From positions 1-25,863 of IMG/VR virus record IMGVR_UViG_3300025617_000100: a stretch of 25,863 nt of DNA; one strand, 5' to 3'. Shown piece by piece: positions 1,323-24,017 of the stretch (the first letter of the stretch is position 1; the number at the start of each line of letters is the position of its first letter). Origin of the DNA: a virus. A program made the position numbers and the translations under genes. Under the pieces are notes generated by a model that was not told the origin of the DNA, did not search any database, and was given only the letters and a program-made list of their open reading frames with translations.

Positions 1323-1326
1323 ATTG

Positions 1327-1400
1327 TGCGCCTGCTAGGACTTGAACCTAGGACCTGTCGATTATGAGTCGAATGCTCTAACCAGCTGAGCTACAGGCGC
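1327..1400 (-). tRNA. tRNA with CAU anticodon (Met elongator or Ile2)
   Basis: A 74-base tRNA with a perfect 7-bp acceptor stem (GCGCCTG/CAGGCGC), D arm AGCTCAGCTGGTTAGAGC, anticodon CAT in loop ACTCATAAT, and T loop TTCAAGT. No encoded CCA. A CAU anticodon means either elongator Met or Ile2 with a lysidine-modified C34 that reads AUA. The TCGACTCATAATCGA arm resembles that of E. coli ileX. AUA is frequent in the late genes, so Ile2 is plausible, but the identity elements were not tested. It is the first of the three tRNAs in the transcript. Confidence 0.93.
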
Positions 1401-1439: not shown

Positions 1440-1733
1440 TTACTTTTTACTGAATTGTTCTGCAAAACCACTAGAATAGTCTTTCTCCCCCTCTATAGAC
1501 CCTGTATCCTTAAGCTCTTTTATCATCTGCTCTAGTCTCTGCCTCTCTACGATAAGCTCTTTGCAGTCCACTGCTGTTTGCTTAACGGCTTGTAGCTCTG
1601 CTTTTCTAGCTGACCCGCCAGCTTCTGGATCTACAGGCTTCTTTACCTCTTCGATCATATTGTCTATAGCAATCTCCATGCTGCTCATCAGTCTTTCTGA
1701 GGCAGAGATCGTAGTAAACTTAGGCTTGCGCAT
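1440..1733 (-). CDS. Coiled-coil protein upstream of terminase (possible small terminase subunit)
   Basis: 97 residues, not recognised by family. Residues about 44-78 (RKAELQAVKQTAVDCKELIVERQRLEQMIKEL region) look like a long amphipathic helix or coiled coil, and the protein is highly charged with a basic end (FAEQFSKK). It overlaps the upstream co-chaperonin gene by 14 bases, so the two are translated from one message, and it is the last protein gene before the tRNAs and the terminase. Size, helical content and position would suit a small terminase subunit, but nothing in the sequence proves this; a scaffold-like accessory protein is equally possible. Confidence 0.7.
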   Translation of the reverse strand: MRKPKFTTISASERLMSSMEIAIDNMIEEVKKPVDPEAGGSARKAELQAVKQTAVDCKELIVERQRLEQMIKELKDTGSIEGEKDYSSGFAEQFSKK

Positions 1734-2307
1734 ACAGGAAGTCTTCTGGTCTCATACGAAGATACTCAACACCGTCGATATTCATGGTATATCCGATCTT
1801 ATGATTGAAAAAAACTTTGTCTCCTATGCTCACCCCGATGCTTTCTATATCATCTGGAGCGTACATAAGTACACCGTGATCGACAGGCTTCTTCTCAAAG
1901 GAGACTTTTATCACTCCTGAGTCTGTTGTTTCTTCCTCTGGGGATTTCTCTTCTTTTTTCAGCAGCAAAGCCCATCCAGAAAGTACATTCAGCTCGTTTG
2001 TTTCTTTGCTCTTGTAAGCTACTGACTCGCTCATGAGTGGTGTGTCCTTGTCGTAGGAGACCATGTAGTAGTTCTCAAGCGAAGAGATAGGCTTCTTGTC
2101 CATGATCACCCTATGGTGGAAATACAACGTATCTCCTACAGCGGCTCCCGTGTCGTGTTTCTCTGGCACTGACACTATCTCTGCGGAACATACTCTGTGC
2201 TCAAACTCGTTGAACTTAGGATCTAAGTATATCTTCTGCCCTCCTACCTCTATCTCGTCTTTGAATTTGTTGTCGATCCTGACAATGAATTGATTTATAG
2301 ATCTCAT
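1720..2307 (-). CDS. Two-domain GroES-like co-chaperonin
   Basis: 195 residues, about twice the length of GroES. The second half (about 109-195) has the GroES layout: an N-terminal strand (GWALLLKKEE), a mobile-loop-like polar stretch, a glycine-valine-aspartate turn (SIGDKVFFNHKIG) and a C-terminal MNIDGVEYLRMRPEDFLYA that closely resembles the GroES ending (DGEEYLIMREDDILA). The first half repeats this more weakly: QFIVRID, then GAAVGDTLYFHH at about 54-65, ending in YYMVSYDKDTPLMSES. Phage co-chaperonins such as T4 gp31 replace GroES on host GroEL to fold the capsid protein; placement in the structural block agrees. The first ATG in frame at 2307 is 1 base from the upstream stop. Whether one chain with two domains forms a seven-domain or pseudo-symmetric lid cannot be told. 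Confidence 0.75.
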   Translation of the reverse strand: MRSINQFIVRIDNKFKDEIEVGGQKIYLDPKFNEFEHRVCSAEIVSVPEKHDTGAAVGDTLYFHHRVIMDKKPISSLENYYMVSYDKDTPLMSESVAYKSKETNELNVLSGWALLLKKEEKSPEEETTDSGVIKVSFEKKPVDHGVLMYAPDDIESIGVSIGDKVFFNHKIGYTMNIDGVEYLRMRPEDFLYAQA

Positions 2308-2885: not shown

Positions 2886-3317
2886 ATGCCTAGATCCATT
2901 ATAAAGAAGATAAAGAAGTTTAGGGAGTTCTCTAGGCTAGACAAGCGATACGTAAAAAGGAACTACCTGAAGCACTTGAGAAAAGCTAGATCTATTATGG
3001 TGGATAGTGGTATCCCCAACAGGTATCTGGACTTTATGCTGTGGTGTTACGATCTAGAGTTCTTCACTATAGACTTCGCTGCTGAAACCTTTGAATACAG
3101 GAAGAGTAAGTTAGCTGACAGGGTTATATACCCTATGGTCAACGAGGGTTTGCTATACAAGCACTTTGACAAGCTCACCCCAAGCGGTAGTGAATCCGAC
3201 TATCTCTTTAGAGACGAGACGAAGTTCAACTATCGCGTGAGGTATGCTTTAACTCAAAAAGGCAGGTTACACGTCCAGAGGTTCTACAGGTTATGCGAAG
3301 GGCTTATAGAAAGTTAA
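2886..3317 (+). CDS. Possible winged-helix DNA-binding protein
   Basis: 143 residues, the only plus-strand gene within the leftward late block. The first 40 residues are strongly basic (MPRSIIKKIKKFREFSRLDKRYVKRN). Residues about 50-125 have a MarR-like order of helices: a helix RYLDFMLWCYDLEFF, a helix-turn-helix-like segment TIDFAAETFEYRKSKLADRVIYPMVNEGLLYKH, then a wing-like section and YALTQKGRLHVQRFY, reminiscent of the LT-x-KG-R ending of winged-helix regulators. Its start faces a divergent promoter gap with an inverted repeat, so it may control the late block or itself. Its last 27 bases overlap the M15 peptidase gene tail to tail. The regulator call is by pattern only. Confidence 0.65.
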   Translation: MPRSIIKKIKKFREFSRLDKRYVKRNYLKHLRKARSIMVDSGIPNRYLDFMLWCYDLEFFTIDFAAETFEYRKSKLADRVIYPMVNEGLLYKHFDKLTPSGSESDYLFRDETKFNYRVRYALTQKGRLHVQRFYRLCEGLIES

Positions 3318-3755
3318 GTTCCTTTCCTTGACAGCCCTCAGCACTTCCATCCTGTTCTCAGAATCCTTTTTATAAGAGACGTGAACCCATGCAGGATTGT
3401 TGTCATCACCAAACTCCCATATGAGCTGATCAAACTCCAGATTGTCTTTGATATAGTCAAAAATTTGTCTATTGCTGACTTTACCATAGATATCAGCGTC
3501 GATATCGAGCGCTTGACCAGTAATATGTTGCGAGCGTCTTGAACCGCCAATCGCATCGTTGAGTTCGTCTGATCTATATCCAGAGGATATTCCGATCGGT
3601 ACACGAAAGAAGTCTCGTAAGGGCTGAAATACATATCTAGCTATACTCTGCAAGTTATCAATTACCTCGATAGAAGGTTCATTATCTATCCCCTTTCTTA
3701 TCGCTGTTACTGACTTTGTAGCCTCCCTTAAACTGAGATTTTTGCTTAGAAGCAT
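3291..3755 (-). CDS. M15-family peptidase, probable endolysin
   Basis: 154 residues, close to the usual size of the phage peptidase M15A family, which cuts peptidoglycan cross-bridges during lysis. The family pattern is clear: an N-terminal helix pair (LSLREATKS..AIRKGIDNEPS), YVFQPLRDFFRVPIGISSGYRSDELN at about 41-66, then SQHITGQALDID with probable zinc ligands His77 and Asp84, and WVHVSYK with His125. The ATG at 3755 keeps the full N-terminal motif. It has no signal peptide, so it needs a holin to reach the wall; a holin-like gene is present at 23571-24017 rather than next door. Its start lies inside the small basic frame 3682-3837, and its end overlaps the convergent gene at 2886 by 27 bases. 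Confidence 0.9.
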   Translation of the reverse strand: MLLSKNLSLREATKSVTAIRKGIDNEPSIEVIDNLQSIARYVFQPLRDFFRVPIGISSGYRSDELNDAIGGSRRSQHITGQALDIDADIYGKVSNRQIFDYIKDNLEFDQLIWEFGDDNNPAWVHVSYKKDSENRMEVLRAVKERNLTFYKPFA

Positions 3756-4874: not shown

Positions 4875-5136
4875 GCTTTTCACGAATAAAGTTTAAAAAA
4901 GAACAGAGTTACTGTGTAACAGTTAGTTACGAGAGTCGGTTAAAGTAAATTCTAAGCGCGAAAGAGATCTATGGGCTGAAAAATCGGTTGAGAAATGTGT
5001 GATGTGGGGATTCAACGTAACATAACACACACGCGAGCGTACACCCAAACGCATTCCCATACGTACCCCTTGCTGCTTTAGCAGCTGCCTCGAAAAAACT
5101 TTAAGCATTTAGGTCAACCCCACTGGAATTCAGCAA

Positions 5137-5159
5137 GTTAGAGGAGTTGAGTTAGAGGA
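5137..5159. repeat. Short direct repeat, two copies of GTTAGAGGA
   Basis: GTTAGAGGA occurs at 5137-5145 and 5151-5159, a 14-base period, inside the gene-free region. It could be a protein-binding pair; two copies are too few to call iterons. Confidence 0.4.
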
Positions 5160-5290
5160 TAGAGTGAAGTAACAGACGCTAAGTGACTGATACTCAAGCA
5201 CTTGACAACCCATCCCCAAACCTATGCTTCACCTCCAAGCAACCCCGCACGGGGGCACACATACGGGGCACGGCCTGCACCCTGCGCCTT

Positions 5291-5350
5291 CGCGCTGCAC
5301 GCTGCACATGTGTACACATACGCGCTGCACACGCTGCACATGTACACACG
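5291..5350. repeat. Imperfect 30-base tandem repeat with GCTGCAC units
   Basis: Two adjacent 30-base units (5291-5320 and 5321-5350) both read CGCGCTGCAC, an optional AC, then GCTGCACATGT and TACACA-type sequence, differing by compensating 2-base indels. GCTGCAC occurs four times (5294, 5301, 5324, 5333), and each unit contains an ACATGT/GTACAC palindromic stretch. It may be a binding array for a replication or repressor protein. Confidence 0.65.
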
Positions 5351-5365
5351 GTCTGATGGGGTTTC

Positions 5366-5386
5366 TTACTATACGTAGTATAGTAA
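5366..5386. promoter_or_regulatory. Perfect 9-bp inverted repeat upstream of promoter P1 (operator-like)
   Basis: TTACTATAC-GTA-GTATAGTAA is a perfect inverted repeat with 9-base arms, ending 21 bases before the TTTG element of P1. A T-run (CTTTTTT) follows, so it could also act as a weak terminator, but the stem is almost all A/T. The core ATACGTAGTAT recurs in a second palindrome at 6813-6829, which favours a protein-binding site. Confidence 0.55.
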
Positions 5387-5407
5387 CTTTTTTATCAGAA
5401 AAAAAGA

Positions 5408-5441
5408 TTTGGAATTTCGGAATTCGTTTCCGTATCTTTGC
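5408..5441 (+). promoter_or_regulatory. Promoter P1 of the rightward block
   Basis: TTTG (5408-5411), a 21-base spacer, then TATCTTTGC (5433-5441) form a near-perfect Bacteroidota promoter. The spacing and -7 sequence are the same as in P2, P3 and P4. It is followed by a 42-base leader ending in ATCAAACCTCTCACTC just before the ATG at 5484. Because the promoter covers the in-frame ATG at 5409, that upstream start is ruled out. Confidence 0.85.
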
Positions 5442-5483
5442 AGAGCCGATGGCAACGTCGCCACGGCATCAAACCTCTCACTC

Positions 5484-6164
5484 ATGGCAAACGCCACCTA
5501 CACTCCCACTCACTGCCCAACCACAGGGCGCAAGTTCAGCAAAGCTGAACGTAAGGCTGCAAACAAGGCCAAGTACGCAGCACTTCGTGCTGAACAACCC
5601 AAGACAGCGAAGCCGAAGGCTTCCAAGCCTGCCAAGCCGAAGGCTACTCAGCCGAAGGCTGCTCCTCAGCCGAAGCCTACACCGAAGGTGACCAAGGCTG
5701 GACTCATGCGGCTCACGAAGGCCGAACTCGTGGCTCTCATCCTCAAAGAGGATGTGAAGCCTGCTGAGGTTGCCAAGCCGACTGCAAAGGCGAAGCCTTC
5801 AGCCCCCAAGCGCACCAAGCCCTCTAGGGCTTCGAAGCCAACCCCAGACCAACGCCTTGAGGCTCGAATGCAGCGTGAGTCTCTTGCAAAGCAAGAGGGA
5901 AAGCGAATCAAGGAGGCTGACAAGGCACGTAAGGTGGTCAGCAAAGCTGACGGCAAGGAGGCTCAGCCGTTCGAGGAGCGTGTGGAGGTGACCGTCCCTG
6001 CGAAGGAGCACAGAGCCAAGCGTGAGGCAGTCACTGAACTGCTTGGTTTGCAGGGCCTTAGCGTCGAGGATGCAGCACGCCGTGACCGCATGATTGCGGA
6101 GCGTGAGGCACTTGAGGCCGCGTTGCTCGCTGACTTCGGAGGCTTCGAAGATGCCCCATTCTGA
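5484..6164 (+). CDS. Histone H1-like Lys/Pro/Ala-rich protein with an SSB-like tail
   Basis: 226 residues from the ATG that follows P1 and its CTCTCACTC leader. The order is: a short N-terminal segment (MANATYTPTHCPTTGRKFSK), a Lys/Pro/Ala repeat region built on PKA and KPK units (about 45-75), a helical motif LMRLTKAELVALILKED (about 74-90) like the SAP/Rho-N type of nucleic-acid-binding helices, a second KPxxP stretch, then a long charged helical region and an acidic hydrophobic tip FGGFEDAPF. The repeats resemble histone H1-like proteins, so DNA binding or compaction is likely. The final residues mimic the tail by which bacterial SSB recruits partners (canonical DDDIPF). No enzymatic motif is seen. 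First gene of the rightward transcript. Confidence 0.75.
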   Translation: MANATYTPTHCPTTGRKFSKAERKAANKAKYAALRAEQPKTAKPKASKPAKPKATQPKAAPQPKPTPKVTKAGLMRLTKAELVALILKEDVKPAEVAKPTAKAKPSAPKRTKPSRASKPTPDQRLEARMQRESLAKQEGKRIKEADKARKVVSKADGKEAQPFEERVEVTVPAKEHRAKREAVTELLGLQGLSVEDAARRDRMIAEREALEAALLADFGGFEDAPF

Positions 6165-6170
6165 TTGATT

Positions 6171-6194
6171 ATCAACAACTTAACTCTCACACAT
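6171..6194 (+). promoter_or_regulatory. CTCTCAC start-associated leader before the gene at 6195
   Basis: ATCAACAACTTAACTCTCAC followed by ACAT immediately precedes the ATG at 6195. The same ATCAA...CTCTCAC arrangement precedes the starts at 5484, 6519, 7774 and 9059 and, more weakly, 8530. There is no promoter here, so the motif is tied to the start codon and not to transcription. Confidence 0.6.
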
Positions 6195-6440
6195 ATGAGC
6201 ACATTCAAGCAAGAGCGCGTGGTGGAATTCTACGTTCACACCACTGACAATGAGGACGTTATCTGGTTTCGTCGCTCATGCAAGTCACCCAACCGCACGA
6301 ACGAGTACAAGCGCATCATGTCTGCGCTCTCACACCCAAGCGTGAAGCACGTAGGCTGGCGTTTGCTGCGCCACGCATCGCATGATGCTCAGTTGTACAA
6401 GCAAGTGGACATGACCACCTGTGACGGCCTACCATTCTGA
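6195..6440 (+). CDS. Hypothetical 81-aa protein with SSB-like C-terminus
   Basis: 81 residues, family not recognised. The start at 6195 is chosen because the CTCTCAC leader lies just before it; an in-frame TTG at 6165 would add residues encoded by the leader. The sequence reads as beta strands and a helix: RVVEFYVHTTDNEDVIWFRR, then TNEYKRIMSALSHPSVKHVGWRLLRHAS. It ends DMTTCDGLPF, again resembling the SSB tip (D-x-x-P-F). It is in the P1 transcript 30 bases after the H1-like gene, which also ends in such a tip, so both may dock on the same SSB-binding partners. Confidence 0.7.
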   Translation: MSTFKQERVVEFYVHTTDNEDVIWFRRSCKSPNRTNEYKRIMSALSHPSVKHVGWRLLRHASHDAQLYKQVDMTTCDGLPF

Positions 6441-6444
6441 CTCT

Positions 6445-6497
6445 CAGTGAGTTAGAAAATAAATTTGGAATTGTCAATCTGTTTGCCGTATCTTTGC
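6445..6497 (+). promoter_or_regulatory. Promoter P2 with CAGT box
   Basis: CAGT (6445-6448), AAAATAAA, TTTG (6464-6467), 21 bases, then TATCTTTGC (6489-6497). The CAGT-to-TTTG distance (19) and the 21-base spacer are identical in P3 and P4. The leader ATCAAAAATCTCTCACTC follows directly and ends at the ATG at 6519. Confidence 0.87.
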
Positions 6498-6518
6498 GGT
6501 ATCAAAAATCTCTCACTC

Positions 6519-7244
6519 ATGACGAACAATCGCATCGTATGGATGGACACAGACAATGTGTTCGTAGTCCGCAAGGGCACAACCACCAACGCCAAGATTG
6601 CCCCGAAGGGGGCCAAGGTAGTTCAAACCTACACCTTCAGCCGTGCACAAGTGGAGCACGTTCGTGACTGCGACCGAGACGGCATCAAAGTAACTCTAAA
6701 GAGTTTCTTCGCTCTCGATGCATCGAACTGCCTCGACTGCCCGCTGTCAGGCAACTCAGGCTCAGGCAAGTGCTACACACACAAGTACATGCAGTTCAGC
6801 GGCTTCCTCTCCATGATACGTAGTATCATCAAGGAACCTATCCCTACACGGCTTGACGCAGAGATGCGGGGCGCGATCACGAAGATGTGCGAAGGTGTGT
6901 ATGTTCGCTTCGGCACATACGGGGAACCATCCCTCCTCCCTATCGATTTGGTCGGTGACATGGTACTCGGTGCATCCTCATGGACAGGCTACACACACCA
7001 AGCCCTCAAGCCTTGGGCACAGCCTTTCAAGGCCTACTACATGGCATCGGCTCACTCAGACCGAGAGGCTGTCTCACTCACGGGGTGGCGGTCGTTCGTA
7101 GCCCGTGACAAGTCAGAGACTTCAGAGGCTGTTGTTTGCCCTGCATCCAAAGAGTCCGACTACGCTAGCAACTGCGCTAAGTGTGGGCTGTGCTCAGGTA
7201 TGGCAGGCAAGGGACGGAAGAACGTTCAAATCCAAATCCACTAA
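6519..7244 (+). CDS. DUF7227-like cysteine-rich phage protein
   Basis: 241 residues from the ATG after P2 and its leader; an in-frame ATG at 6465 lies inside the promoter and is rejected. The pattern matches a phage and plasmid family of unknown function (I recall it as DUF7227): an N-terminal Cys cluster CLDCPLSG..GKCY (Cys71, 74, 85), a middle VRFGTYGEPSLLP and ASSWTGYTHQALKPW, then MASAHSDREA..LTGWRSFVAR and a C-terminal cluster VCPAS..NCAKCGLCSG (Cys207, 219, 222, 225). The paired Cys clusters suggest metal (zinc or iron-sulfur) binding. The reaction is unknown. A palindrome (6813-6829) lies inside the gene. Two bases separate it from the next gene. Confidence 0.8.
   Translation: MTNNRIVWMDTDNVFVVRKGTTTNAKIAPKGAKVVQTYTFSRAQVEHVRDCDRDGIKVTLKSFFALDASNCLDCPLSGNSGSGKCYTHKYMQFSGFLSMIRSIIKEPIPTRLDAEMRGAITKMCEGVYVRFGTYGEPSLLPIDLVGDMVLGASSWTGYTHQALKPWAQPFKAYYMASAHSDREAVSLTGWRSFVARDKSETSEAVVCPASKESDYASNCAKCGLCSGMAGKGRKNVQIQIH
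6813..6829. promoter_or_regulatory. Inverted repeat inside the DUF7227-like gene
   Basis: ATGATAC-GTA-GTATCAT is a perfect 7-base-arm inverted repeat with the same GTA spacer and ATACGTAGTAT core as the palindrome before P1. It encodes part of SMIRSII, so it could be chance, but the shared 11-base core makes an internal operator worth considering. Confidence 0.35.
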
Positions 7245-7246
7245 TC

Positions 7247-7480
7247 ATGCGACACACGATACTCACTCACGCACTTGTGGCAGCTACATACGCCACGTAC
7301 ACCTTGCTCACTTCGAGCGGCATCGTGTTCCACACGACAGCCCTCCTGCTGTGCTTCACCATCGCTGCCTTGACAGAAGGCGAAGAGGGCTCGCGATTCA
7401 TGAGCGAAGTCAGCCTCAGCTTTGCTGTCAACGCACTGGTCTGGATATTCATCCACATGGCAAACCTGCTAAGTCACTGA
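7247..7480 (+). CDS. Small membrane protein (77 aa)
   Basis: 77 residues from the ATG at 7247, two bases after the upstream stop. Three hydrophobic segments are seen: about 6-19 (LTHALVAATYATYT), 21-42 (LTSSGIVFHTTALLLCFTIAAL) and 56-72 (LSFAVNALVWIFIHMAN), separated by a short acidic loop (TEGEEGSRFMSE). That suggests an inner-membrane protein with two or three spans. Family not recognised; roles such as superinfection exclusion are typical of early small membrane proteins of phages, but nothing here proves one. Confidence 0.65.
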   Translation: MRHTILTHALVAATYATYTLLTSSGIVFHTTALLLCFTIAALTEGEEGSRFMSEVSLSFAVNALVWIFIHMANLLSH

Positions 7481-7482
7481 GT

Positions 7483-7713
7483 ATGATGCACTTCCAAGTA
7501 TGCTATCGCACAGACGACACGCTCAATCACCCGCCCATCTGGGTGCGTGATGCAGAGGAGGCACTCGCAGTCATGAGGGCGCGAGCAACCGCAGGTGAGC
7601 ACTCATACGTCTATGCTTACCCTTGGAAGCGTGCATGGTTCCCACAACACACCTTCAACACGGAAGCTGAACTTGAGTCATACATCGCTGAAAATCAGTC
7701 AGTTGAAAAATAA
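7483..7713 (+). CDS. Hypothetical 76-aa protein
   Basis: 76 residues from ATG ATG at 7483, two bases after the upstream stop. It is a soluble-looking alpha/beta sequence: HFQVCYRTDDTLNHPPIWVR, a helix DAEEALAVMRARATA, then YVYAYPWKRAWFPQHTFNTEAELESYIAENQ. The strand-helix-strand order with aromatic residues may be a small ferredoxin-like fold, which is a guess. It is the last gene of the P2 cassette; its stop codon TAA lies within the AAAATAAATTTGG upstream part of promoter P3, so the promoter and the gene's end are fused. Confidence 0.7.
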   Translation: MMHFQVCYRTDDTLNHPPIWVRDAEEALAVMRARATAGEHSYVYAYPWKRAWFPQHTFNTEAELESYIAENQSVEK

Positions 7714-7748
7714 ATTTGGAAGTTAGCTTCTGTTTGCCTTATCTTTGC
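7696..7748 (+). promoter_or_regulatory. Promoter P3 with CAGT box
   Basis: CAGT (7696-7699), AAAATAAA, TTTG (7715-7718), 21 bases, then TATCTTTGC (7740-7748). The geometry is the same as in P2 and P4. The CAGT box and A-tract lie within the last codons and stop of the upstream gene. The leader ends ATCTCTCACCG before the ATG at 7774. Confidence 0.87.
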
Positions 7749-7773
7749 ACCATCAATTTCAAATCTCTCACCG

Positions 7774-8118
7774 ATGAATTACCCATCACATCTCGTAGCA
7801 CCACGCTACTGCTCATTCACTCACCAACCCATGTTCGAAGGATGGTGTGTCCAAGACGGAGAAGCGTACATCAAGTACGAGTCTGACGCTCTCAAGTGCG
7901 CCAAGGACGCAGGCTATGATGACCTCGAAGAAGCCTACGAAGACGACTTCATCTACTACACAGACTGGGTGGACATACCCGAAGACGAGTGGCACGAAGT
8001 GCCCGCTGAGGCTGTCATCAATTCCCTTGTGGATGACGCTGAAATCCTGCTCTTCTACATCGAAGATGAGAAGGTCAAGAACAGATACCAAGCAATCGTA
8101 AACAAGTACAAGCAATGA
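7774..8118 (+). CDS. Hypothetical acidic protein (114 aa)
   Basis: 114 residues, first gene after P3. The N-terminus RYCSFTHQPMFEGWCVQDGE has two cysteines and a histidine but no clear zinc motif. The rest is very acidic (DDLEEAYEDDFIYYTDWVDIPEDEWHEV, in two parts) and ends with a helix VNKYKQ. Small, strongly acidic early phage proteins sometimes mimic DNA or bind host enzymes; that is only a possibility here. Its stop overlaps the next start (ATGA at 8115-8118). Confidence 0.75.
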   Translation: MNYPSHLVAPRYCSFTHQPMFEGWCVQDGEAYIKYESDALKCAKDAGYDDLEEAYEDDFIYYTDWVDIPEDEWHEVPAEAVINSLVDDAEILLFYIEDEKVKNRYQAIVNKYKQ

Positions 8119-8267
8119 AAGACGAAATCCTCCTGAGGCTCAAGTACGTCGAGGAGACGTATGCAGGCGAAGCCGAGACGTGGCTCGATCCCGTGACAGG
8201 CACACACTACCTCATCCCCATCAGCATCATCCGAGACTTGGACAATGCAAAACCCATCAACCAATGA
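8115..8267 (+). CDS. Small hypothetical protein (50 aa)
   Basis: 50 residues: MKDEILLRLKYVEETYAGEA, then ETWLDPVTGTHYLIPISIIRDLDNAKPINQ. Both ends are coupled by ATGA overlaps, with the upstream acidic protein at 8115 and the downstream lipoprotein at 8264. It contains an N-terminal amphipathic helix and a beta-like TGTHYLIPISI. Not recognised. The double overlap and the conserved codon style make it very likely real in spite of its size. Confidence 0.7.
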   Translation: MKDEILLRLKYVEETYAGEAETWLDPVTGTHYLIPISIIRDLDNAKPINQ

Positions 8268-8434
8268 ACGACAGCTTCAACACCCTCGCTCGCGTAGTCA
8301 TCGGCGCGTGCATCATCAGCGTAGTCACTTGCGCTCTCACCTCATGCTCAACCACACGTCACCACAGGGAGTCATGTCCACAAGCATACGGATACAAGAA
8401 CCACACATACAGCAAGCCTTTCATAAACCACTGA
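8264..8434 (+). CDS. Small lipoprotein (56 aa)
   Basis: 56 residues starting at an ATGA overlap (8264). A hydrophobic signal segment RVVIGACIISVVTCALTSC ends in the lipobox LTSC, with Cys28 as the predicted lipidation site. The mature part is only about 29 residues (CSTTRHHRESCPQAYGYKN, then HTYSKPFINH), with one further Cys. Similar tiny Cys/Tyr/Gly-rich lipoproteins occur in Bacteroidota genomes. As a phage product it would sit in an envelope membrane and might alter receptors or exclude other phages (inference). Last gene of the P3 cassette. Confidence 0.7.
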   Translation: MNDSFNTLARVVIGACIISVVTCALTSCSTTRHHRESCPQAYGYKNHTYSKPFINH

Positions 8435-8438
8435 TTGT

Positions 8439-8491
8439 CAGTCGTTTGGAAAATAAATTTGGAAATTAGATTCTTTTTCCCTTATCTTTGC
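8439..8491 (+). promoter_or_regulatory. Promoter P4 with CAGT box
   Basis: CAGT (8439-8442), AAAATAAA, TTTG (8458-8461), 21 bases, then TATCTTTGC (8483-8491). It is followed by a 38-base leader containing ATCAAAACATTCTCACATC directly before the ATG at 8530. It rules out the in-frame ATG at 8488, which overlaps the -7 element. Confidence 0.85.
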
Positions 8492-8529
8492 ATCGTCAAT
8501 TCGACACAACATCAAAACATTCTCACATC

Positions 8530-8940
8530 ATGAGCATCACAACAAACAAGCGTCGGCACTCAGGCGTTACTCGCCGCATCTCCAGCACTCAATCCCTCAG
8601 CAAGAGCGGTAAGTACACCATCGAAATCAACCATGCGTTCGAAGGCGAAGGCTTGACAGAAGTAGGTGCAGGTACACTCGAAGAGTGTGAGATGCAGTTC
8701 AATCATACACAGGTGGAGGTGTACATTTGGGAGCACACCACAGACTACGAGGGTTACCCGAAGAAGGAAATCATCAACAGCAGACGAACTCTGTTCAGAG
8801 GGGAGTTCAATGGTGAGGTTCTTGGGGTGGTAAGCGGCTACAATCAGAAGGCTGAACGAGACTACTTCAAGCACAGCCTCTCACCTGCCGAGGCACACAT
8901 CGCAGTCATGAACTTCGCCAACAAGTGGCTCAAGCAGTAA
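8530..8940 (+). CDS. Hypothetical protein (136 aa), first gene after P4
   Basis: 136 residues from the ATG at 8530, after P4 and the leader. A basic Ser/Thr-rich N-terminus (MSITTNKRRHSGVTRRISST) precedes a likely folded domain with strands KYTIEINHAF, QVEVYIWEHTT, TLFRGEFNGEVLGVVSGY, and a C-terminal helix SPAEAHIAVMNFANKWLKQ. Family not recognised. A tRNA-like element follows 12 bases after the stop. Confidence 0.7.
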   Translation: MSITTNKRRHSGVTRRISSTQSLSKSGKYTIEINHAFEGEGLTEVGAGTLEECEMQFNHTQVEVYIWEHTTDYEGYPKKEIINSRRTLFRGEFNGEVLGVVSGYNQKAERDYFKHSLSPAEAHIAVMNFANKWLKQ

Positions 8941-8952
8941 TCGACTGCACAC

Positions 8953-9030
8953 AACCGAGCGTATGCTGAGGTCATCGAGGTATGCGGGAACAGGGTACAC
9001 CCTGTGGTGGTTCGATTCCACCTTCGGTTC
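8953..9030 (+). ncRNA. tRNA-like structured element with T arm but no anticodon arm
   Basis: A 78-base element between two genes. Ends AACCGAG (8953-8959) and TTCGGTT (9023-9029) form a 7-bp acceptor-like stem with one G-U pair. A canonical T arm, GGTGG-TTCGATT-CCACC (9006-9022), abuts the 3' acceptor strand exactly as in tRNA. Just before it is a hairpin ACAGGG-TACA-CCCTGT (8990-9005), placed like the long variable arm of class II tRNAs. The remaining 30 bases are too short for both D and anticodon arms, and no 7-base anticodon loop is found. It may be a decayed tRNA, a processing signal for RNase P/Z that splits the transcript, or a regulatory leader. Confidence 0.5.
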
Positions 9031-9040
9031 TATTTTCTAA

Positions 9041-9058
9041 TCATCAAAATTCTCTCAC
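9041..9058 (+). promoter_or_regulatory. CTCTCAC start-associated leader before the gene at 9059
   Basis: TCATCAAAATTCTCTCAC is joined directly to the ATG at 9059. It matches the leaders behind P1-P4, yet no promoter lies here; the gene must be read from the P4 transcript, downstream of the tRNA-like element. This supports a translational or RNA-level role for the motif. Confidence 0.6.
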
Positions 9059-9364
9059 ATGGACTACAAGTTCAACACCAACGCCCCTTTCTTTCAGCTT
9101 TTCGAGAGCGGCATGAACACAAGCGTCGGGACTACACAGGGCACAGCCCCTATCAACACAGCTATGGTTAAGCTGACCTTCACCATCTCCGCCATGCGAC
9201 CATACGTCAAGTGCGGAATCGCCCCTTACCGAGGCTTCCGCCTGAAGGATGTCAAGGAATTCTACGGCATCAAGGGGAACAAGCAACACATCCTCGATGC
9301 GCTCTTGCACTTGCGAGAGACCATGAAGAACTACGAAGTACTCAAGTCAGAAGTTGAACAATGA
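9059..9364 (+). CDS. Hypothetical protein (101 aa)
   Basis: 101 residues, family not recognised. The start is fixed by the adjoining CTCTCAC leader. The N-terminus DYKFNTNAPFFQLFESGMN is polar and aromatic, the middle MVKLTFTISAMRPYVKCGIAP looks like two strands, and RLKDVKEFYGIKGNKQHILDALLHLRETM is a helical C-terminal half that could be a helix-turn-helix (VKEFYGIKGNKQHILDAL). The stop overlaps the next ATG (9361-9364). Confidence 0.7.
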   Translation: MDYKFNTNAPFFQLFESGMNTSVGTTQGTAPINTAMVKLTFTISAMRPYVKCGIAPYRGFRLKDVKEFYGIKGNKQHILDALLHLRETMKNYEVLKSEVEQ

Positions 9365-9639
9365 TATTCAAATCAATCATGAACGGACACGCAAACTACG
9401 AGACATGGCTCACCCATGTATGGGAAATCCCCACAGCTATCGCTGACTCATTCGAAGAAGACTACCGACCCGATGCTAAGTACTGCCACGAGTGGGTGCA
9501 AGAGTACCTGCGCATTCAAGACATGGAGGCAAGCTACTTGTCTGACCTCATCAACAGCGCACTCGACAACGTGAAGTGGTACGAGATAGCTGATTCCGTA
9601 AACGAAATCCTTGACGAACGCAAAGAAGACGCGGCATGA
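9361..9639 (+). CDS. DUF7249-like phage protein (NGHANYETW family)
   Basis: 92 residues, start at an ATGA overlap. The motif MNGHANYETWLTHVWE near the start is the hallmark of small phage proteins of the NxxxNYETW type (recalled as DUF7249), whose function is unknown. The rest is helical and acidic (SDLINSALDNVKWYEIADSV, then NEILDERKEDAA), as in the family. Translation could also begin at the second Met (9379), but the ATGA coupling favours 9361. The family is common in tailed-phage early regions. Confidence 0.75.
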   Translation: MIFKSIMNGHANYETWLTHVWEIPTAIADSFEEDYRPDAKYCHEWVQEYLRIQDMEASYLSDLINSALDNVKWYEIADSVNEILDERKEDAA

Positions 9640-15237: not shown

Positions 15238-15540
15238 ATGAAAACATTTGAAGAACTGCAAGAAGCAGTATTAGAGTGGGCTGACGAGCGTGACTTGCTC
15301 GAAGCTAACCCAAACAGACAGTTCCTTAAAGTCGTAGAAGAGCTGGGTGAACTGGCTTCTGCTATGGCTAAGAACCAACGAGAAAACGAGATTGATGCTA
15401 TGGGAGATTTATTTGTAACTCTCATCATCCTTTCTCGACAGATCAACCTTAACCCAGTCAAATGTCTTGAAGTAGCATACAACATGATTGCTGACAGGAA
15501 AGGTAAAACAGTAGACGGAGTATTTATCAAAGACGAATGA
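15238..15540 (+). CDS. mazG: MazG-like nucleotide pyrophosphohydrolase
   Basis: 100 residues, the usual size for single-domain phage MazG. These enzymes hydrolyse (d)NTPs to monophosphates and may also act on (p)ppGpp or house-clean altered nucleotides. The metal-binding pattern is clear: KVVEELGELASAMAKNQREN with ExxE (E34-E38 area) followed by EIDAMGDLFVTLIILSRQ with ExxxxD in the second helix. It shares an ATGA overlap with thyX, so they are translated together as a nucleotide-supply pair. Confidence 0.88.
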   Translation: MKTFEELQEAVLEWADERDLLEANPNRQFLKVVEELGELASAMAKNQRENEIDAMGDLFVTLIILSRQINLNPVKCLEVAYNMIADRKGKTVDGVFIKDE

Positions 15541-16292
15541 ACGTACAACTAATCAACATCACCCCTAGTGCTGAACAGCACATCGTAGAGGTGGCAAGGG
15601 TCTCTTCTAAGAGGCAAGACAAGAAGCAAGACTACGCAGGTCTTATCAGGTACTTGATCAAGCACAAGCATTGGTCTCCTTTTGAACACGCTTACGCTAC
15701 GTTTGAGATCCATACAAGCAAAGCTATTGGGATACAGCTTATCAGGCATCGAAGTTTCACTTTTCAAGAGTTCAGTCAACGATACCAAGACGTAAGTCTT
15801 ATCAACGACGACATCTTCGAACCGATCGAGTTGCGCAAGCAAGCAACAAACAACAGGCAGTCGTCAACAGACTTGTTCGTAGACAAAGTCAAAGTTGAGG
15901 GTGGGTACATGAACATCAATGACATGGTGGAGAGTCACTTGGCTAACGCAAAGAGGTTGTATCGTTTGATGCTATCAGAAGGTGTAGCACGAGAGACAGC
16001 CCGCATGGTGCTACCTTTGGCTACCAAGACCAAGATCCACATGACAGGATCTATTCGTAGTTGGATTCACTTCTTGGAACTCAGAGACGACGAGCACGCT
16101 CAGAAAGAAATCAGACAGATAGCCAAAGAGATTCGTTGCTATCTCAACGAAGCCCTCCCAATCATAACAAAAGCACTTAGCAATGACAGTAACGATATTT
16201 CAGAACGTCTTTCAGAAAGACCAGCCCCATCACATACAACTAGCGACAGCCCTCAAGAGGATTCAGGAGGGGAGTTCTGCAACCACGATTGA
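15537..16292 (+). CDS. thyX: Flavin-dependent thymidylate synthase ThyX
   Basis: 251 residues. Converts dUMP to dTMP using FAD, NADPH and methylene-tetrahydrofolate. The signature RHR-x7-S is present as RHRSFTFQEFS (residues 70-80), preceded by HWSPFEH (45-51), and the C-terminal part carries VARETARMVLPLATKTKIHM and SIRSWIHFLELR with the substrate-binding arginines. The last 36 residues (after about ITKAL) are a low-complexity Ser/Asp/Pro tail; they are encoded by the region that overlaps the start of the primase-helicase gene for 110 bases, so this tail looks overprinted on that gene. Starts at an ATGA overlap with mazG. Confidence 0.95.
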   Translation: MNVQLINITPSAEQHIVEVARVSSKRQDKKQDYAGLIRYLIKHKHWSPFEHAYATFEIHTSKAIGIQLIRHRSFTFQEFSQRYQDVSLINDDIFEPIELRKQATNNRQSSTDLFVDKVKVEGGYMNINDMVESHLANAKRLYRLMLSEGVARETARMVLPLATKTKIHMTGSIRSWIHFLELRDDEHAQKEIRQIAKEIRCYLNEALPIITKALSNDSNDISERLSERPAPSHTTSDSPQEDSGGEFCNHD

Positions 16293-19184: not shown

Positions 19185-21071
19185 ATGAAAAAAGAAATTC
19201 CTTGGGGGGAAGTAGGATACCCCGTCTTCAAAAGAACCTACTCACGGCCAATGCAGAACGGTCAAACAGAAGAGTGGGCTGACACTATTGAGCGCGTCAT
19301 TGACGCATGTAGGGATCAGCTGAATTGTGGTTTCACAACCTTCGAAGAGGGTCAGGTGAGGGACATGATGATGGATCTCAAGGGTACTGTAGCTGGTCGC
19401 TTTCTGTGGCAGCTGGGTACTGAGACTGTTGATCGCCTCGGTCTGCCTTCGCTTCAGAACTGCGCCTTCACTGTAGTCGATGACCCTATCCGTCCATTCA
19501 CATGGGCATTTGAGATGCTCATGCTTGGTAGCGGTGTAGGCTTTAACATTCAAAGAGAGCACGTCTACCAGCTCCCAAAGGTCAAGGCTCGTGTTAAGGT
19601 TGAGAGAAGCGACGTTAATGACGCTGACTTCATCGTGCCTGATTCTCGCGAAGGATGGGTAGAGCTTCTTAAGCGAGTATTGGAGGCATCTTTCGTCACT
19701 GGTGAGGACTTCACCTTCGGCACTCATTTGATTCGCTCTAAGGGTTCTCCTATCAAAGGTTTTGGAGGAACAGCTTCTGGCCCTGAAGACTTGGTATGGG
19801 GCATGATTGAGATCAACAAGGTGTTGAATAAGAAGAGCGGTCGTAGGCTGTCACCAGTAGACTGCTTGGACATCATGAATATCATCGGTCGTATTGTGGT
19901 GGCTGGTAATGTGCGTCGTTCAGCTCAGATTGCACTTGGTGATAGTGATGACATTGAGTACTTGCGTGCTAAGCGTTGGGATCTGGGCAACATCCCCAAC
20001 TGGAGGGCTATGTCCAACAACAGCGTAATCTGTTCTGATATCACTACTTTGCCTGACGAGTTCTGGGAGGGGTACAATGGTAATGGAGAGCCTTACGGAT
20101 TGATCAATCTTGAAGCGTCTCGCAAGCAAGGACGTACGTTTGAGAATCAATATCCTGATCTTGATGTAATGGGCTTCAACCCATGTGCAGAGCAATCCTT
20201 GGCTAACTTTGAGACTTGCTGCTTGGCTGAGATTTACCTACCAAACATCGACAACTACGAAGAACTGCTTCGTGTGTCTAGGCTGTTGTATCGCATCAAC
20301 AAGCACAGCTTGGCTATCCCTTGTGCCATCAAGGAGACAGAAGATATCGTACACAAGAACATGCGTATGGGTATTGGCGTGACAGGCTATCTTCAGGCTA
20401 CTGAAGAGCAGCGGTCATGGTTGTCTGATTGCTATGAACAACTAAGAATTTATGACGATGAGTATTCACGACTGGCTGGGTTTCCAAGTTCTATTAAACT
20501 CACAACAGTTAAGCCATCAGGAACACTTAGCCTTCTCGCTGGCGTTACATCAGGAGCACATCCAGCCTATGCTCAGCACTACATCCGTAGAATTAGAATG
20601 GCATCAGATAGCGCTCTTGTTGGGACAGCTAGAGGGAATGGATACCCCGTGGAGTACGTAAGAAACTTCGACGGTACAGAAGATAAGAGCACGTCAGTAG
20701 TGTCCTTTCCTTGCTCCTTCCCCGAAGGAACAGCCTTGGCTGAGGATATGTCGGCTGTGGATCAGCTTGAGGTTATCAAGAGATTGCAAGCAGAGTGGTC
20801 AGACAACGCTGTCTCTGTGACTATCTACTACCGCAAAGAAGAACTTGAGCCGATAAAAGAGTGGTTGCGGCTCAACTACAAGAACGTAAAATCTGTTTCA
20901 TTCCTTTTGCATAACGACCATGGATTCGACCAAGCCCCACTGGAAGCCATCACTAAAGAAGAGTTCGATAAGATGTCAGCGCTTGTTACGCCTATTACAT
21001 CTCTTACGGCCATCAGCATGGACGATGTTGACATCCAAGATTGTGACACAGGAGCATGCCCAGTACGATGA
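19185..21071 (+). CDS. nrdJ: Adenosylcobalamin-dependent (class II) ribonucleotide reductase
   Basis: 628 residues. Reduces ribonucleotides to deoxyribonucleotides with a radical generated from coenzyme B12, so it works with or without oxygen and requires host cobalamin. The sequence follows the monomeric Lactobacillus RTPR type: redox Cys93 in SLQNCAF, active-site Asn332, Cys334, Glu336 in NPCAEQ, second redox Cys345 (ETCC), VKPSGTLSLLAGVTSGAHPA (442-461), and a C-terminal redox pair CDTGACPVR (Cys620, Cys625) that passes electrons from thioredoxin. It is about 110 residues shorter than the Lactobacillus enzyme. It follows a possible own promoter and is coupled to the next gene by ATGA. Confidence 0.95.
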   Translation: MKKEIPWGEVGYPVFKRTYSRPMQNGQTEEWADTIERVIDACRDQLNCGFTTFEEGQVRDMMMDLKGTVAGRFLWQLGTETVDRLGLPSLQNCAFTVVDDPIRPFTWAFEMLMLGSGVGFNIQREHVYQLPKVKARVKVERSDVNDADFIVPDSREGWVELLKRVLEASFVTGEDFTFGTHLIRSKGSPIKGFGGTASGPEDLVWGMIEINKVLNKKSGRRLSPVDCLDIMNIIGRIVVAGNVRRSAQIALGDSDDIEYLRAKRWDLGNIPNWRAMSNNSVICSDITTLPDEFWEGYNGNGEPYGLINLEASRKQGRTFENQYPDLDVMGFNPCAEQSLANFETCCLAEIYLPNIDNYEELLRVSRLLYRINKHSLAIPCAIKETEDIVHKNMRMGIGVTGYLQATEEQRSWLSDCYEQLRIYDDEYSRLAGFPSSIKLTTVKPSGTLSLLAGVTSGAHPAYAQHYIRRIRMASDSALVGTARGNGYPVEYVRNFDGTEDKSTSVVSFPCSFPEGTALAEDMSAVDQLEVIKRLQAEWSDNAVSVTIYYRKEELEPIKEWLRLNYKNVKSVSFLLHNDHGFDQAPLEAITKEEFDKMSALVTPITSLTAISMDDVDIQDCDTGACPVR

Positions 21072-21407: not shown

Positions 21408-21446
21408 GAGGGGAGGCCCATTGTAGGCTTCCCCTCTTTGTTTTTA
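21408..21446. terminator. Bidirectional rho-independent terminator
   Basis: GAGGGGAGGCC (21408-21418) pairs with GGCTTCCCCTC (21426-21436) as an 11-bp GC-rich stem (one G-U pair) with a 7-base loop, followed on the plus strand by TTTGTTTTT. On the minus strand the stem is followed by ACATTTTAAGG, also T-rich. It separates the convergent rightward and leftward blocks; the minus-strand stop codon (21444) lies in the T tract. Confidence 0.9.
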
Positions 21447-21779
21447 ATCGTAAGCGCTGTCTATTATAGACTGTAAGCTGTCTAGCGATACTGTAGGCTC
21501 TAGCATTATATTGCCTCCAAACATGGCTAAGGTTTCCTTTCCTTTGTAAACAAGTATTACAGGGACGTTTGGGAGTTTTCTCTGAACCGAAAACGGTTGA
21601 TCTTCCAGATAAGCATTTTGCTTTTCACATCTCTGTAGCGGAGTTAAGTCAACCGAGCTAGACCTATTCCACCTGCTGTTTATCTGTATAACCTTTACTT
21701 CATAGTTATCACTGTTCACAACAGCCGTGGCCGCCATAGCAGTAAGCAAGAAAGCCAATAATATTTTTACACTGCTCAT
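21444..21779 (-). CDS. Exported thioredoxin-fold-like protein lacking CxxC (111 aa)
   Basis: 111 residues. A signal peptide is likely (KILLAFLLTAMAATAVVNS). The mature part EVKVIQINSRWNRSSSVDLT, RCEKQNAYLEDQPFSVQRKL, PNVPVILVYKGKETLAMFGG ends with helix LDSLQSIIDSAYD. The VPVILVYKGKE...FGG stretch resembles the cis-Pro strand pair of thioredoxin folds, but the catalytic CxxC is absent and only one Cys remains. The fold assignment is tentative. Last gene of the right-hand leftward block, coupled by ATGA to the gene before it. Confidence 0.65.
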   Translation of the reverse strand: MSSVKILLAFLLTAMAATAVVNSDNYEVKVIQINSRWNRSSSVDLTPLQRCEKQNAYLEDQPFSVQRKLPNVPVILVYKGKETLAMFGGNIMLEPTVSLDSLQSIIDSAYD

Positions 21780-22048
21780 TGCGTCTGATCATAAATTCTT
21801 TGCTCAAGTACCTTTAACGTCTCTTTTATTTCTGATATATCCCCTTCCATTGTCATAATGGCGGATCTAATCATCTCATCTTTGTAACGGAACTCTTCTT
21901 GACTTACTGTTGGTATTGGTAAGCTTTTGGCTTCTTCTATGTCACTCTGCAACGTGAAGTACAAGCCTATAACCGTAGACATACCAATAGTATATGCTAT
22001 CAAATCCTTAGCTGTTATGGTAAGGCTTGTGTTATCCAAAAAACTCAT
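21776..22048 (-). CDS. Membrane-anchored coiled-coil protein (90 aa)
   Basis: 90 residues. One hydrophobic span at about 14-33 (DLIAYTIGMSTVIGLYFTLQ) is followed by a polar helix rich in Glu, with heptads in DEMIRSAIMTMEGDISEIKE and TLKVLEQRIYDQTQ. This N-terminal anchor plus C-terminal coiled coil is typical of phage spanin-like or lysis-accessory proteins (i-spanin/Rz-like), and the lysis genes lie upstream, but the type is not proven. The start is 4 bases after a TATCTTTG element, so the mRNA may be leaderless. Ends in ATGA. Confidence 0.7.
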   Translation of the reverse strand: MSFLDNTSLTITAKDLIAYTIGMSTVIGLYFTLQSDIEEAKSLPIPTVSQEEFRYKDEMIRSAIMTMEGDISEIKETLKVLEQRIYDQTQ

Positions 22049-22078: not shown

Positions 22079-22321
22079 TTATTTGGAAGCTTTTTTCTTC
22101 AGCCTCGACTTCTCCCTCCTACCCCTGTTCTTGGATTCGCTTTCGAACCCAGAGATAGATCCGTTCTTATGAGAGGCATCTAAACCATCACCGTTTCCAT
22201 AAGTACCTTTCTTCCTGTTGTACTTATTGAGCTTGACTCTGTAAGCAATCTTCTCTGGAGAAGACTGAAACTTCTTGTACTCTTTCTTGTAGTTTCTTTT
22301 CTTGGCCTTCATTCTCTCCAT
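22079..22321 (-). CDS. Small basic phage protein, HNH-like degenerate motif
   Basis: 80 residues, very basic. KKRNYKKEYKKFQSSPEKIA, YRVKLNKYNRKKG, then GNGDGLDASHKNGSISGFES and ESKNRGRREKSRLKKK match a family of small phage proteins of the pattern (Y)xSxPEQIAxRxxRNKxRR..GxGxDVxHKDGNxxNNxxxNLxxxSKSxNR. That pattern looks HNH-like; here the core is DGLDASHKNGS, with His present but the second Asn/His region altered, so catalysis may be lost. Role unknown. Starts 13 bases inside the metalloprotease gene. Confidence 0.7.
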   Translation of the reverse strand: MERMKAKKRNYKKEYKKFQSSPEKIAYRVKLNKYNRKKGTYGNGDGLDASHKNGSISGFESESKNRGRREKSRLKKKASK

Positions 22322-23571
22322 ATGTTAATCCTGTCCCTGAAGTCTCTCCATGGCTGATCCGTCCTAACTCTTCTGTTTGGGTTTTCGATAGGGGGCGCTT
22401 CCTGCCTCTCTCCGTTCATATCGTAGTCATACAATGGACCAGCACATTCCAACCCATAAGCTGTATTAAAGAGCAATACATCTGTAGACCCAATCTGACC
22501 GTCGAAGTTTAAGTCACAAGCTTCACAATCCCCAACAGGCTCTTCCTCCCAACAAGCTAGTATGCTGAGTAAGTCGTTCATCCCTACAACATAGTCTCCG
22601 TTCACGTCACCAAGACAGGTAGGATCGTTGTCGTCAATGATACTCGTTCTGATGTGATGCATATGATTGTGCATGTACAAGAACTGGTCATTGGTGAAAG
22701 CTGTTCTGCAACTGTCTATGTAGTAGTCCATGTGGTTGTTGTGCACATACCCTTCCCAAGGCTTTCCTTCCCAAAACGTCTCGTCAGAACACGTAGGGTC
22801 TTCACAACTCCAGTTAACCCCCATAGGTGGAGTGTCGCATATATTGTCTTGTATAGCTGAGCAATCTCCGTTCACGTTTTGGTTGCATATCTCTGTGCCA
22901 TTGAATGGGTGGTGCAAGCCCAAGTAGTGCCCCACTTCGTGAACAAATGTCTTGTTCTCTTTACGAAGGTTAAGCAAGTAGTCCCCATCCAGTCCGAACA
23001 CGTTTGTCTTCACCCATACCCCATCCATCCAGTTGTAGAATGCTGGGTTGCGGAAAGCAAAGCCAAGTATGCTGCTGCACATATCAGGGAGCAGGTGCAC
23101 ATTCATAAACTCGTTGGTGTCCCACACCTTGTTGCCTATGTACCCTACAAGCGCAGTCTGACCGTATGGGGCACAAGTAGCCCCTGTAGCCAAGTTGTAC
23201 CCATCTGATCCACCATCCTCAATCATATCGTGGTACTTGATCTGGATGGTCTCGAAGCTGAACATGTACTCAGCGAACTGCTCGTTCAGGTCAGCCATAG
23301 CTTCTTCTACGTGCCACTGTGGGATGTTGGCCCACTCGTCATAGATAGAATAGTGAACGTGAACAACAACCTTGATCTCTTTCCAGTATACATTGGCTGG
23401 ATTGGTCATGTCCAAATCCTCTCTACCCTCAACAATAAAGTCCTCACCGAGGATAGCGCACGGGGATGTAGTATCTGCTCTCTGTACTGTTTGAGCATCG
23501 GTCAGGTTGTAGCCTGACATAAGCATAGCAATCGTCAGGACAATGCCTGACAAGTTAAGTGGGTTTTTCAT
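22309..23571 (-). CDS. Secreted M43 (pappalysin-type) zinc metalloprotease with dockerin-like repeats
   Basis: 420 residues. A signal peptide (LSGIVLTIAMLMSGYNLTDA) precedes a metzincin domain: zinc motif HEVGHYLGLHH (HExxHxxGxxH, His211, Glu212, His215, His221), the family-specific QDNICDTPP (241-249), and the Met-turn HNNHMDYY around Met281. The C-terminal part has two calcium-binding dockerin-like repeats, DVNGDYVVGMNDLLSIL (322-338) and DLNFDGQIGSTDVLLF (353-368), then a Pro/Arg-rich end. Such enzymes are typical secreted proteins of marine Bacteroidota, unusual in phages. It lies between the holin-like gene (TAATG overlap) and a small basic gene, so it is expressed late and may aid lysis, release or host-surface cleavage. 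Confidence 0.9.
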   Translation of the reverse strand: MKNPLNLSGIVLTIAMLMSGYNLTDAQTVQRADTTSPCAILGEDFIVEGREDLDMTNPANVYWKEIKVVVHVHYSIYDEWANIPQWHVEEAMADLNEQFAEYMFSFETIQIKYHDMIEDGGSDGYNLATGATCAPYGQTALVGYIGNKVWDTNEFMNVHLLPDMCSSILGFAFRNPAFYNWMDGVWVKTNVFGLDGDYLLNLRKENKTFVHEVGHYLGLHHPFNGTEICNQNVNGDCSAIQDNICDTPPMGVNWSCEDPTCSDETFWEGKPWEGYVHNNHMDYYIDSCRTAFTNDQFLYMHNHMHHIRTSIIDDNDPTCLGDVNGDYVVGMNDLLSILACWEEEPVGDCEACDLNFDGQIGSTDVLLFNTAYGLECAGPLYDYDMNGERQEAPPIENPNRRVRTDQPWRDFRDRINIWRE

Positions 23572-24017
23572 TATTTTTTATTGGTTGTTTTTTCAATAGT
23601 TCTGCCAGCAAAGTAAGCTCCAAAAACAGTGAGCATCAATACTTGCAGCAAATCTATGAAAGAATCTCTTGGCATAAACTGCTCATTTAGAGCATCCCAC
23701 AGAGTTACAACCATGAAAAATAACAATAGGGCTATCATTATACTTGGCCTGATAATTTTAGCAATTTTTACATCGCTAGACATGTCAGCTTCCCACCTCC
23801 TAGTAACATTTTCTTGTCTTGCTATCTCAATCTGTGATTTCAAGTTCTCGAATTCCATCTTGTCCTGAGCAGGTATTTCTGGGTCACTATCTACCAGTCG
23901 TTTTATAACACCCAGTACACCAGCGTCTGGCAAAAGGTCACCAGCAATGTCCAGTATTTTAGGTGATTTACTTGACAGCCACTCACCTATCTTAGTGTCC
24001 TTTATTGGCTTATTCAT
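23571..24017 (-). CDS. Holin-like protein (3TM holin family)
   Basis: 148 residues. An N-terminal amphipathic part (SPKILDIAGDLLPDAGVLGV) and a helix with EFENLKSQIEIARQENVTRR lead to RRWEADMSSD (73-82), the marker of the 3TM holin family (GTA-holin type), then IIRPSIMIALLLFFMVVTLW (88-107) and IDLLQVLMLTVFGAYFAGRT (121-140) as membrane spans and a Lys-rich tail. Holins open the inner membrane so that endolysin, here probably the M15 peptidase at 3291-3755, reaches the wall. It overlaps the large upstream gene by 8 bases. Confidence 0.83.
   Translation of the reverse strand: MNKPIKDTKIGEWLSSKSPKILDIAGDLLPDAGVLGVIKRLVDSDPEIPAQDKMEFENLKSQIEIARQENVTRRWEADMSSDVKIAKIIRPSIMIALLLFFMVVTLWDALNEQFMPRDSFIDLLQVLMLTVFGAYFAGRTIEKTTNKK

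Follow-up and report, generated by a model that had tools for sequence, protein, structure and literature searches.

The window examined here is an entire virus record (IMGVR_UViG_3300025617_000100; 25,863 nucleotides, or 25.9 kb) whose terminase resembles those of Flavobacterium and Cellulophaga phages. On its minus strand it encodes a metalloprotease, which a sequence-only reading of the same DNA had set at 22309-23571 without giving a strand; those coordinates are right. The gene and the features that bear on it are:

22309..23571, minus strand: gene for a 420-aa M43 (pappalysin-family) metalloprotease whose C-terminal domain is dockerin-type (Pfam and AlphaFold2)
23571..24017, minus strand: holin, upstream neighbor of the protease (PHROGs phrog_3427, lysis/holin, E=7.8e-17)
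22079..22321, minus strand: small basic protein, phrog_6437 (PHROGs, 4.6e-14); 13-base overlap with the protease gene
21776..22048, minus strand: small protein with a single N-terminal transmembrane (TM) span plus a stretch predicted to form a coiled coil; on inspection its topology resembles that of an i-spanin
21444..21779, minus strand: small exported protein, hydrophobic at its N-terminus; its gene shares 4 bases with the TM/coiled-coil gene and travels with it
21408..21436, no strand assigned: strong G+C-rich hairpin between converging operons; 11-pair stem, T run on the plus strand
3291..3755, minus strand: M15 peptidase (Pfam Peptidase_M15_3, 1.6e-17; a homologue matches endolysin phrog_894 at 3.7e-41)

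The holin stop and the protease start overlap by exactly one base, TAATG (...AAAAAATAATGAAA...), as had been claimed for what was then called a “holin-like” gene. The hairpin is likely the end of the late operon, and the M15 peptidase is likely the window's endolysin; its gene lies apart from the holin in the window and immediately upstream of the holin in the related loci L072-L075 and L079. The two small genes at 21776..22048 and 21444..21779 had no family match in Pfam or PHROGs. Elsewhere in the window, the stretches 1720-2307 (minus), 15238-16292 (plus), 19185-21071 (plus) and 1158-1400 (minus) hold genes for a GroES-like protein, a MazG-type pyrophosphohydrolase, ThyX, a B12-dependent ribonucleotide reductase and three tRNAs (Leu, Arg and Met), and a mosaic-like segment at 5001-9500, made up mostly of unassigned plus-strand ORFs, has a G+C content of 0.49-0.54 versus about 0.44 elsewhere.

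Within the protease, the following parts can be told apart (counts are of phage homologues):

23494..23571, minus strand: Sec signal peptide, aa 1-26, ending LTDA/Q (A26/Q27), from the sequence and the Bacteroidetes Q-rule
23458..23460, minus strand: Cys38, candidate cysteine-switch residue near the mature N-terminus, from its conservation and comparison with promirolysin
22630..23397, minus strand: M43 catalytic region, about aa 59-314 (Pfam; PDB profile match to mirolysin, E=9.6e-23)
22909..22941, minus strand: zinc-binding motif HEVGHYLGLHH, aa 211-221; H211, E212, H215 and H221 invariant
22723..22737, minus strand: Met-turn NHMDY, aa 279-283; M281 and Y283 in 52/52
22714..22716, minus strand: Asp286, equivalent of mirolysin Asp289 (S1' pocket), at +5 from the Met-turn Met as in mirolysin
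22573..22608, minus strand: first dockerin-type calcium loop, aa 322-333; D322, D326, G330 and D333 in 52/52
22480..22515, minus strand: second dockerin-type calcium loop, aa 353-364; D353 in 51/52, D364 in 52/52
22312..22443, minus strand: variable C-terminal tail, aa 377-420, without a T9SS sorting domain and modular-looking

The signal peptide, HEVGHYLGLHH, DNICDTPP (aa 242-249), the Met-turn and the two calcium loops had all been named from the letters of the window, and all are present. The M43 and dockerin assignments are far beyond chance, since the Pfam scores exceed the curated cut-offs: Peptidase_M43 (PF05572) matches aa 145-304 at E=1.5e-12 (48.1 bits versus a cut-off of 23) and Dockerin_1 (PF00404) matches at E=4e-6 (27.4 bits versus 22.9). 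PF05572 is also matched by 52/52 phage members (E up to 0.001). Searched against the PDB, a profile of the phage homologues found mirolysin (9.6e-23), ulilysin (5e-20 to 3e-19) and the human pappalysins, with cellulosomal dockerins as a separate match. An AlphaFold2 model built from 112 sequences reached a mean pLDDT of 82.5, with most of the catalytic domain's first half above 90, and replaced a model from 22 sequences that had reached pLDDT 60. Its best solved folds in Foldseek were ulilysin (1.8e-12), promirolysin (4.7e-12) and mirolysin, all with E about 1e-12 and with TM-scores of 0.57-0.70 when normalized to those smaller targets. Profile, fold, zinc motif and Met-turn together place the protein in the M43 (pappalysin) family, and score and Asp conservation mark its two calcium loops as being of the type I dockerin kind.

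The sequence-only reading had allowed for an inactive zinc site in relatives, and none was seen. The four residues H211, E212, H215 and H221 are unchanged in an alignment of 54 viral (54/54) and 58 cellular sequences, and HExxH with the third zinc His is present in 34/34 distinct M43s of a mostly holin-selected set (the window, its near-copy L002, and the remainder from holin-selected loci); among loci gathered by the M43-profile scan, conservation of the zinc site is partly built in, as the search words there include the zinc motif or Met-turn. At position 218 of HExxHxxGxxH, 36/52 phage members have G and 16/52 have S; in mirolysin the matching residue is Asp (PMC6949598). At position 286, 47/52 have D and 5/52 have E; in mirolysin, Asp289 sets the P1' preference for Lys/Arg (PMC6949598).

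Ten cysteines are invariant in 52/52 phage M43s, and C237 and C245 are kept in 50/52. The invariant ones include a pair, C133 and C165, present in 54/54 viral sequences; the cellular M43s have Cys at 165 in 6/58, and Cys is not among their common residues at 133. Cys38 is kept in both groups (54/54 viral and 57/58 cellular). In promirolysin the zinc is capped by the Cys of Q20-R-T-C23, which comes three residues after the mature Gln (PMC8259862, PMC6949598), and this Q+3 spacing is common to mirolysin and many phage members; in the window protein the distance, from Q27 to C38, is longer, the Cys-Gly motif is not kept at Cys38 (Cys-Ala/Val instead), and the pro-segment was modeled at a pLDDT of about 50. 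From the conservation of Cys38 and the promirolysin precedent we may fairly infer that the enzyme is probably kept latent by a predicted cysteine switch. Calcium would not keep it inactive, since calcium is plentiful in seawater.

A search for homologues in the same position, which the earlier reading had proposed, found M43 genes recurring beside holin or endolysin genes in related phages. When 80 viral loci were fetched with the holin protein, M43 playing no part in the choice, an M43 gene lay <=2.2 kb downstream of the holin in 26/53 distinct loci with enough downstream sequence. Among distinct loci selected by M43 (2.5 kb flanks), 29/38 had a same-strand holin or endolysin <=2.5 kb away, which was phrog_3427 in 26 cases and in the other three depended on queries drawn from these same loci; the expectation, from the density of lysis genes elsewhere in the same loci, is about 0.02 per locus. 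The start overlaps the preceding stop by four bases (-4) in 17/61 phage M43 genes and by one (-1) in 1/61. Its repeated occurrence in an operon with holin or endolysin genes places the phage M43 gene in the lysis cassette.

The company that the gene keeps varies in detail. The order is M15 endolysin-holin-M43 in L072-L075 and L079; M43 adjoins an unrelated holin, phrog_2359 (5.1e-12), in L113 and an amidase endolysin in L149 and L089; it follows the holin and homologues of the window's two small genes in L091, L098, L101, L127 and L157; and in L103, L108 and L138 it adjoins an XhlA-like gene, with the holin elsewhere. In L139-L145 it is next to GroEL, and no phrog_3427 or phrog_2359 holin was found in the records searched; it directly precedes the phage GroEL in L139, L140, L142, L143, L144 and L145, a GroES-like gene then following in L139. 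An in-frame TGA at the boundary upstream raised TGA recoding in the relatives' holins as a candidate, which was rejected as the holin ORFs looked at were open. M43 is dispensable, an accessory that comes and goes, since about half of the holin loci are without it and six gains or losses are needed on the holin tree. A place in the late operon, adjoining large virion-type proteins, would also suit a protease carried in the virion to cut surface proteins at adsorption or genome delivery, but we think this quite unlikely: across these contexts the gene is linked to lysis genes and not to those of the tail, and a Sec signal peptide with a disulphide-rich secreted architecture is ill-matched to a virion protein.

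Among 50,697 phage records searched by tblastn, there was no relative from a cultured phage; the one hit covered part of the protein, about 98 residues, in an unannotated 7.6 kb fecal record. Scanned against PHROGs, two phage M43s (those of the window and L060) matched no family, so that routine phage annotation may miss these genes.

A phylogeny, the comparison with host enzymes that the sequence-only reading had called for, was built from 61 viral and 77 cellular M43s; in it 60/61 viral sequences form a single clade separate from the others (SH-aLRT 98). The remaining one, a host-type protein of 638 residues in L061, groups with cellular sequences and sits between a holin and a ribonucleotide reductase; it is independent of the main clade and lies downstream of the same holin. 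By eye, this M43 has a T9SS-like C-terminal end, and a protein bearing the type IX secretion domain CHU_C overlaps it (L061:9571-12632), apparently as T9SS cargo encoded by a phage. A search of about 85,000 genomes with short search patterns gave no near-identical cellular gene among the matches listed; the best of these had E=3e-22 at 29% identity, none exceeded 36% over parts of the protein, and the closest were from Bacteroidetes and Planctomycetes. A nearer cellular gene may lie beyond these matches. The phage clade probably derives from exported pappalysins of Bacteroidetes. Between close phage M43 pairs dN/dS is 0.05-0.20, which indicates that the protein is maintained, and over 39 distinct pairs M43 distances rise with holin distances (r=0.60, 0/5000 permutations).

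These results also bear on whether the gene is a host exoprotease gene that was captured recently and by chance and does nothing for the phage. Pappalysins are indeed common in Bacteroidetes hosts, but the separate viral clade, the low dN/dS, the recurrent position and the phage-typical C133/C165 pair make such a capture hardly credible. Absence from relatives together with identity to one host gene, the pattern that the earlier reading had linked to chance capture, was not seen: many related phages have the gene. Its view that this is not a casual insertion was well founded, and the M43 is a phage-owned gene.

The predicted export signal follows the Q-rule of Bacteroidetes signal peptides (PMC5837995), with Gln at the cleavage column in 49/52 phage homologues and a Q-type site in 60/61. 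At the other end of the protein, the T9SS sorting domain (Por_Secre_tail) was found in 0/52 phage M43s versus 29/44 cellular M43s, so that by this domain the phage enzymes are not T9SS exoproteases, and Dockerin_1 is commoner in the phage proteins (20/52 versus 2/44). The likening of the protein to typical secreted host proteases is therefore incomplete. With a Sec signal and no recognized T9SS tail, the product should remain periplasmic until lysis. The tails that follow the dockerin part are of a few exchangeable types (RGRSPFPFK, LLDLLNKH, VFPDAIRE; e.g., L064, L022, L062) on otherwise similar proteins; the idea that a shared tail is a sorting tag was rejected, as the tails were not on other proteins of the same locus, bar one chance-like match.

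The missing tail weighs against the proposal that this is an auxiliary or conversion gene, one that alters the exoproteome of the infected cell or feeds the host by degrading environmental protein. The host relatives are secreted exoproteases and L061 pairs a host-type M43 with a CHU_C neighbor, as such a role would suggest; the main phage family, however, is without T9SS tails, sits among late lysis genes, and forms a separate clade under strong purifying selection. We regard it as improbable; a change of the exoproteome in the living cell, which the sequence-only reading had offered among its roles, is unlikely given the different tails of host and phage versions, and its suggestion of S-layer degradation found no specific support. 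The roles that it named in release and in the freeing of progeny may hold.

Outer-membrane disruption is the step at which spanins act, and the window protease itself, with a cleavable signal peptide, no lipobox and a soluble protease fold, is not a spanin. No ORF with a lipobox was found near the holin in 63/64 loci. The sole lipobox ORF found in the window (8264-8434, plus strand; 56 residues, lipoprotein signal CALTSC) lies in the plus-strand, early region. Croceibacter phages P2559S and P2559Y and Bacteroides phage B124-14 are on a list of phages without a recognizable spanin (PMC6139136). A complementary distribution of M43 and o-spanin was considered and rejected, as phages with and without M43 alike have no lipobox ORFs near the holin. 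The overlapping small-gene pair of the window (21444-22048, minus strand) accompanies holin and M43, with homologues in L027, L068, L091, L098, L101, L127 and L157; its exported member has, by eye, a thioredoxin-like fold without CxxC, and the pair is possibly an unrecognized spanin-like pair of Bacteroidetes phages. Small one-TM coiled-coil genes also lie near the holin or protease in L030, L033, L038, L042, L063, L103 and L138; they occur in phages with and without M43, give weak XhlA/Rz-like spanin matches, and are unnamed in current libraries.

We lean, with modest confidence, toward a late, exported and latent predicted protease of the lysis cassette that is active at or just after the breach of the envelope and loosens the outer membrane. 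Judging by the overlapping genes, the protease would be made late along with the holin. It would be exported by the host Sec pathway, cut by signal peptidase I between Ala26 and Gln27 (as the conserved site suggests), and, without a T9SS tail, held in the periplasm, where Cys38 may cap the zinc as in promirolysin and keep it latent. Once the envelope has been opened by holin and endolysin, the enzyme would become active and digest proteins of the periplasm and those associated with the outer membrane, by prediction favoring bonds that precede Lys/Arg, so that the outer membrane is loosened, debris is cleared and progeny can exit. It could aid the outer-membrane step in phages without a recognizable lipoprotein spanin in the sequenced lysis region. 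Counting against this reading are the dispensability of M43, the lack of a pattern in which protease and o-spanin alternate, and the phages whose M43 lies away from any recognized holin.

Somewhat unlikely, though the most serious of the rivals, is an action confined to the time after the burst, in which the protease, once set free, removes receptors and sticky proteins from host debris or neighboring matrix and so keeps progeny from being trapped, with no part in breaking the envelope. The position among lysis genes and the patchy presence suit such an accessory, and the dockerin and variable tails could bind debris. Nothing in the sequence sets this role apart from action at lysis; a cytoplasmic protein would be freed by lysis anyway, yet the Sec signal is kept in 60/61, although it may still serve disulphide formation. 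Returning to the lysis-cassette protease, the M43 enzymes of many uncultivated Bacteroidetes viruses probably provide a predicted protein-cutting step that helps dismantle the host envelope.

A conserved protease that is specific to phages, tied to the holin in many of them and fitted with a signal for export by the host makes a definite candidate for an extra step of lysis in the passage of Bacteroidetes phages through the outer membrane. It is also a host exoprotease family that phages have domesticated with a change of address: the surface-secretion tail is gone and an extra invariant cysteine pair is present. If the enzyme acts at lysis, it bears on how lysis of Bacteroidetes converts particulate protein to dissolved matter.

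The nearest known enzymes, mirolysin of Tannerella forsythia and ulilysin of Methanosarcina (both M43B), share the catalytic domain, zinc site, Met-turn and S1' Asp with the phage protein, and its C237/C256/C261/C288 align with the mirolysin disulphide positions C243/C262/C271/C291. They are its best sequence and fold matches, yet identity in the fold alignment is about 20-23%, and the phage M43 differs in its dockerin-type C-terminus, the lack of a T9SS tail, the extra invariant Cys133/Cys165 and the holin neighbor. Cytophagalysin and other exported pappalysins of Bacteroidetes belong to the same family and to the host phylum, but are larger, with PKD, SprB and T9SS domains; 0/91 cellular M43 genes lay beside lysis genes.

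Among phage systems, two-component and unimolecular spanins would serve the same step, disruption of the outer membrane after holin and endolysin, but they are fusion proteins tethered to membranes and include a lipoprotein, whereas the phage M43 is a soluble, exported, predicted protease. The Bacteroides fragilis prophage-like element Bfgi2 carries a host-type exoprotease, the C10 protease Bfp3 (PMC2873492), which, unlike the phage M43, is a cysteine protease found in a single element with no shown link to a lysis cassette. Maribacter phages Molly and Colly encode a 199-aa zinc metallopeptidase, a metzincin in a cultured flavophage (PMC8776804); it is a lipoprotein with a matrixin-type rather than an M43 domain, and gave a weak fold match. 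LysB of mycobacteriophages is an extra lysis-cassette enzyme for a host-specific outer layer (PMC5707550); as an esterase acting on mycolyl-arabinogalactan, with no homology to the phage M43 protease, it is a precedent in its working only. Searches of the open-access literature turned up no account of phage pappalysins, of M43 peptidases in phage lysis or beside a holin, or of phage-encoded proteases in lysis cassettes. The M43 enzyme family and, in principle, extra lysis enzymes such as LysB are known already.
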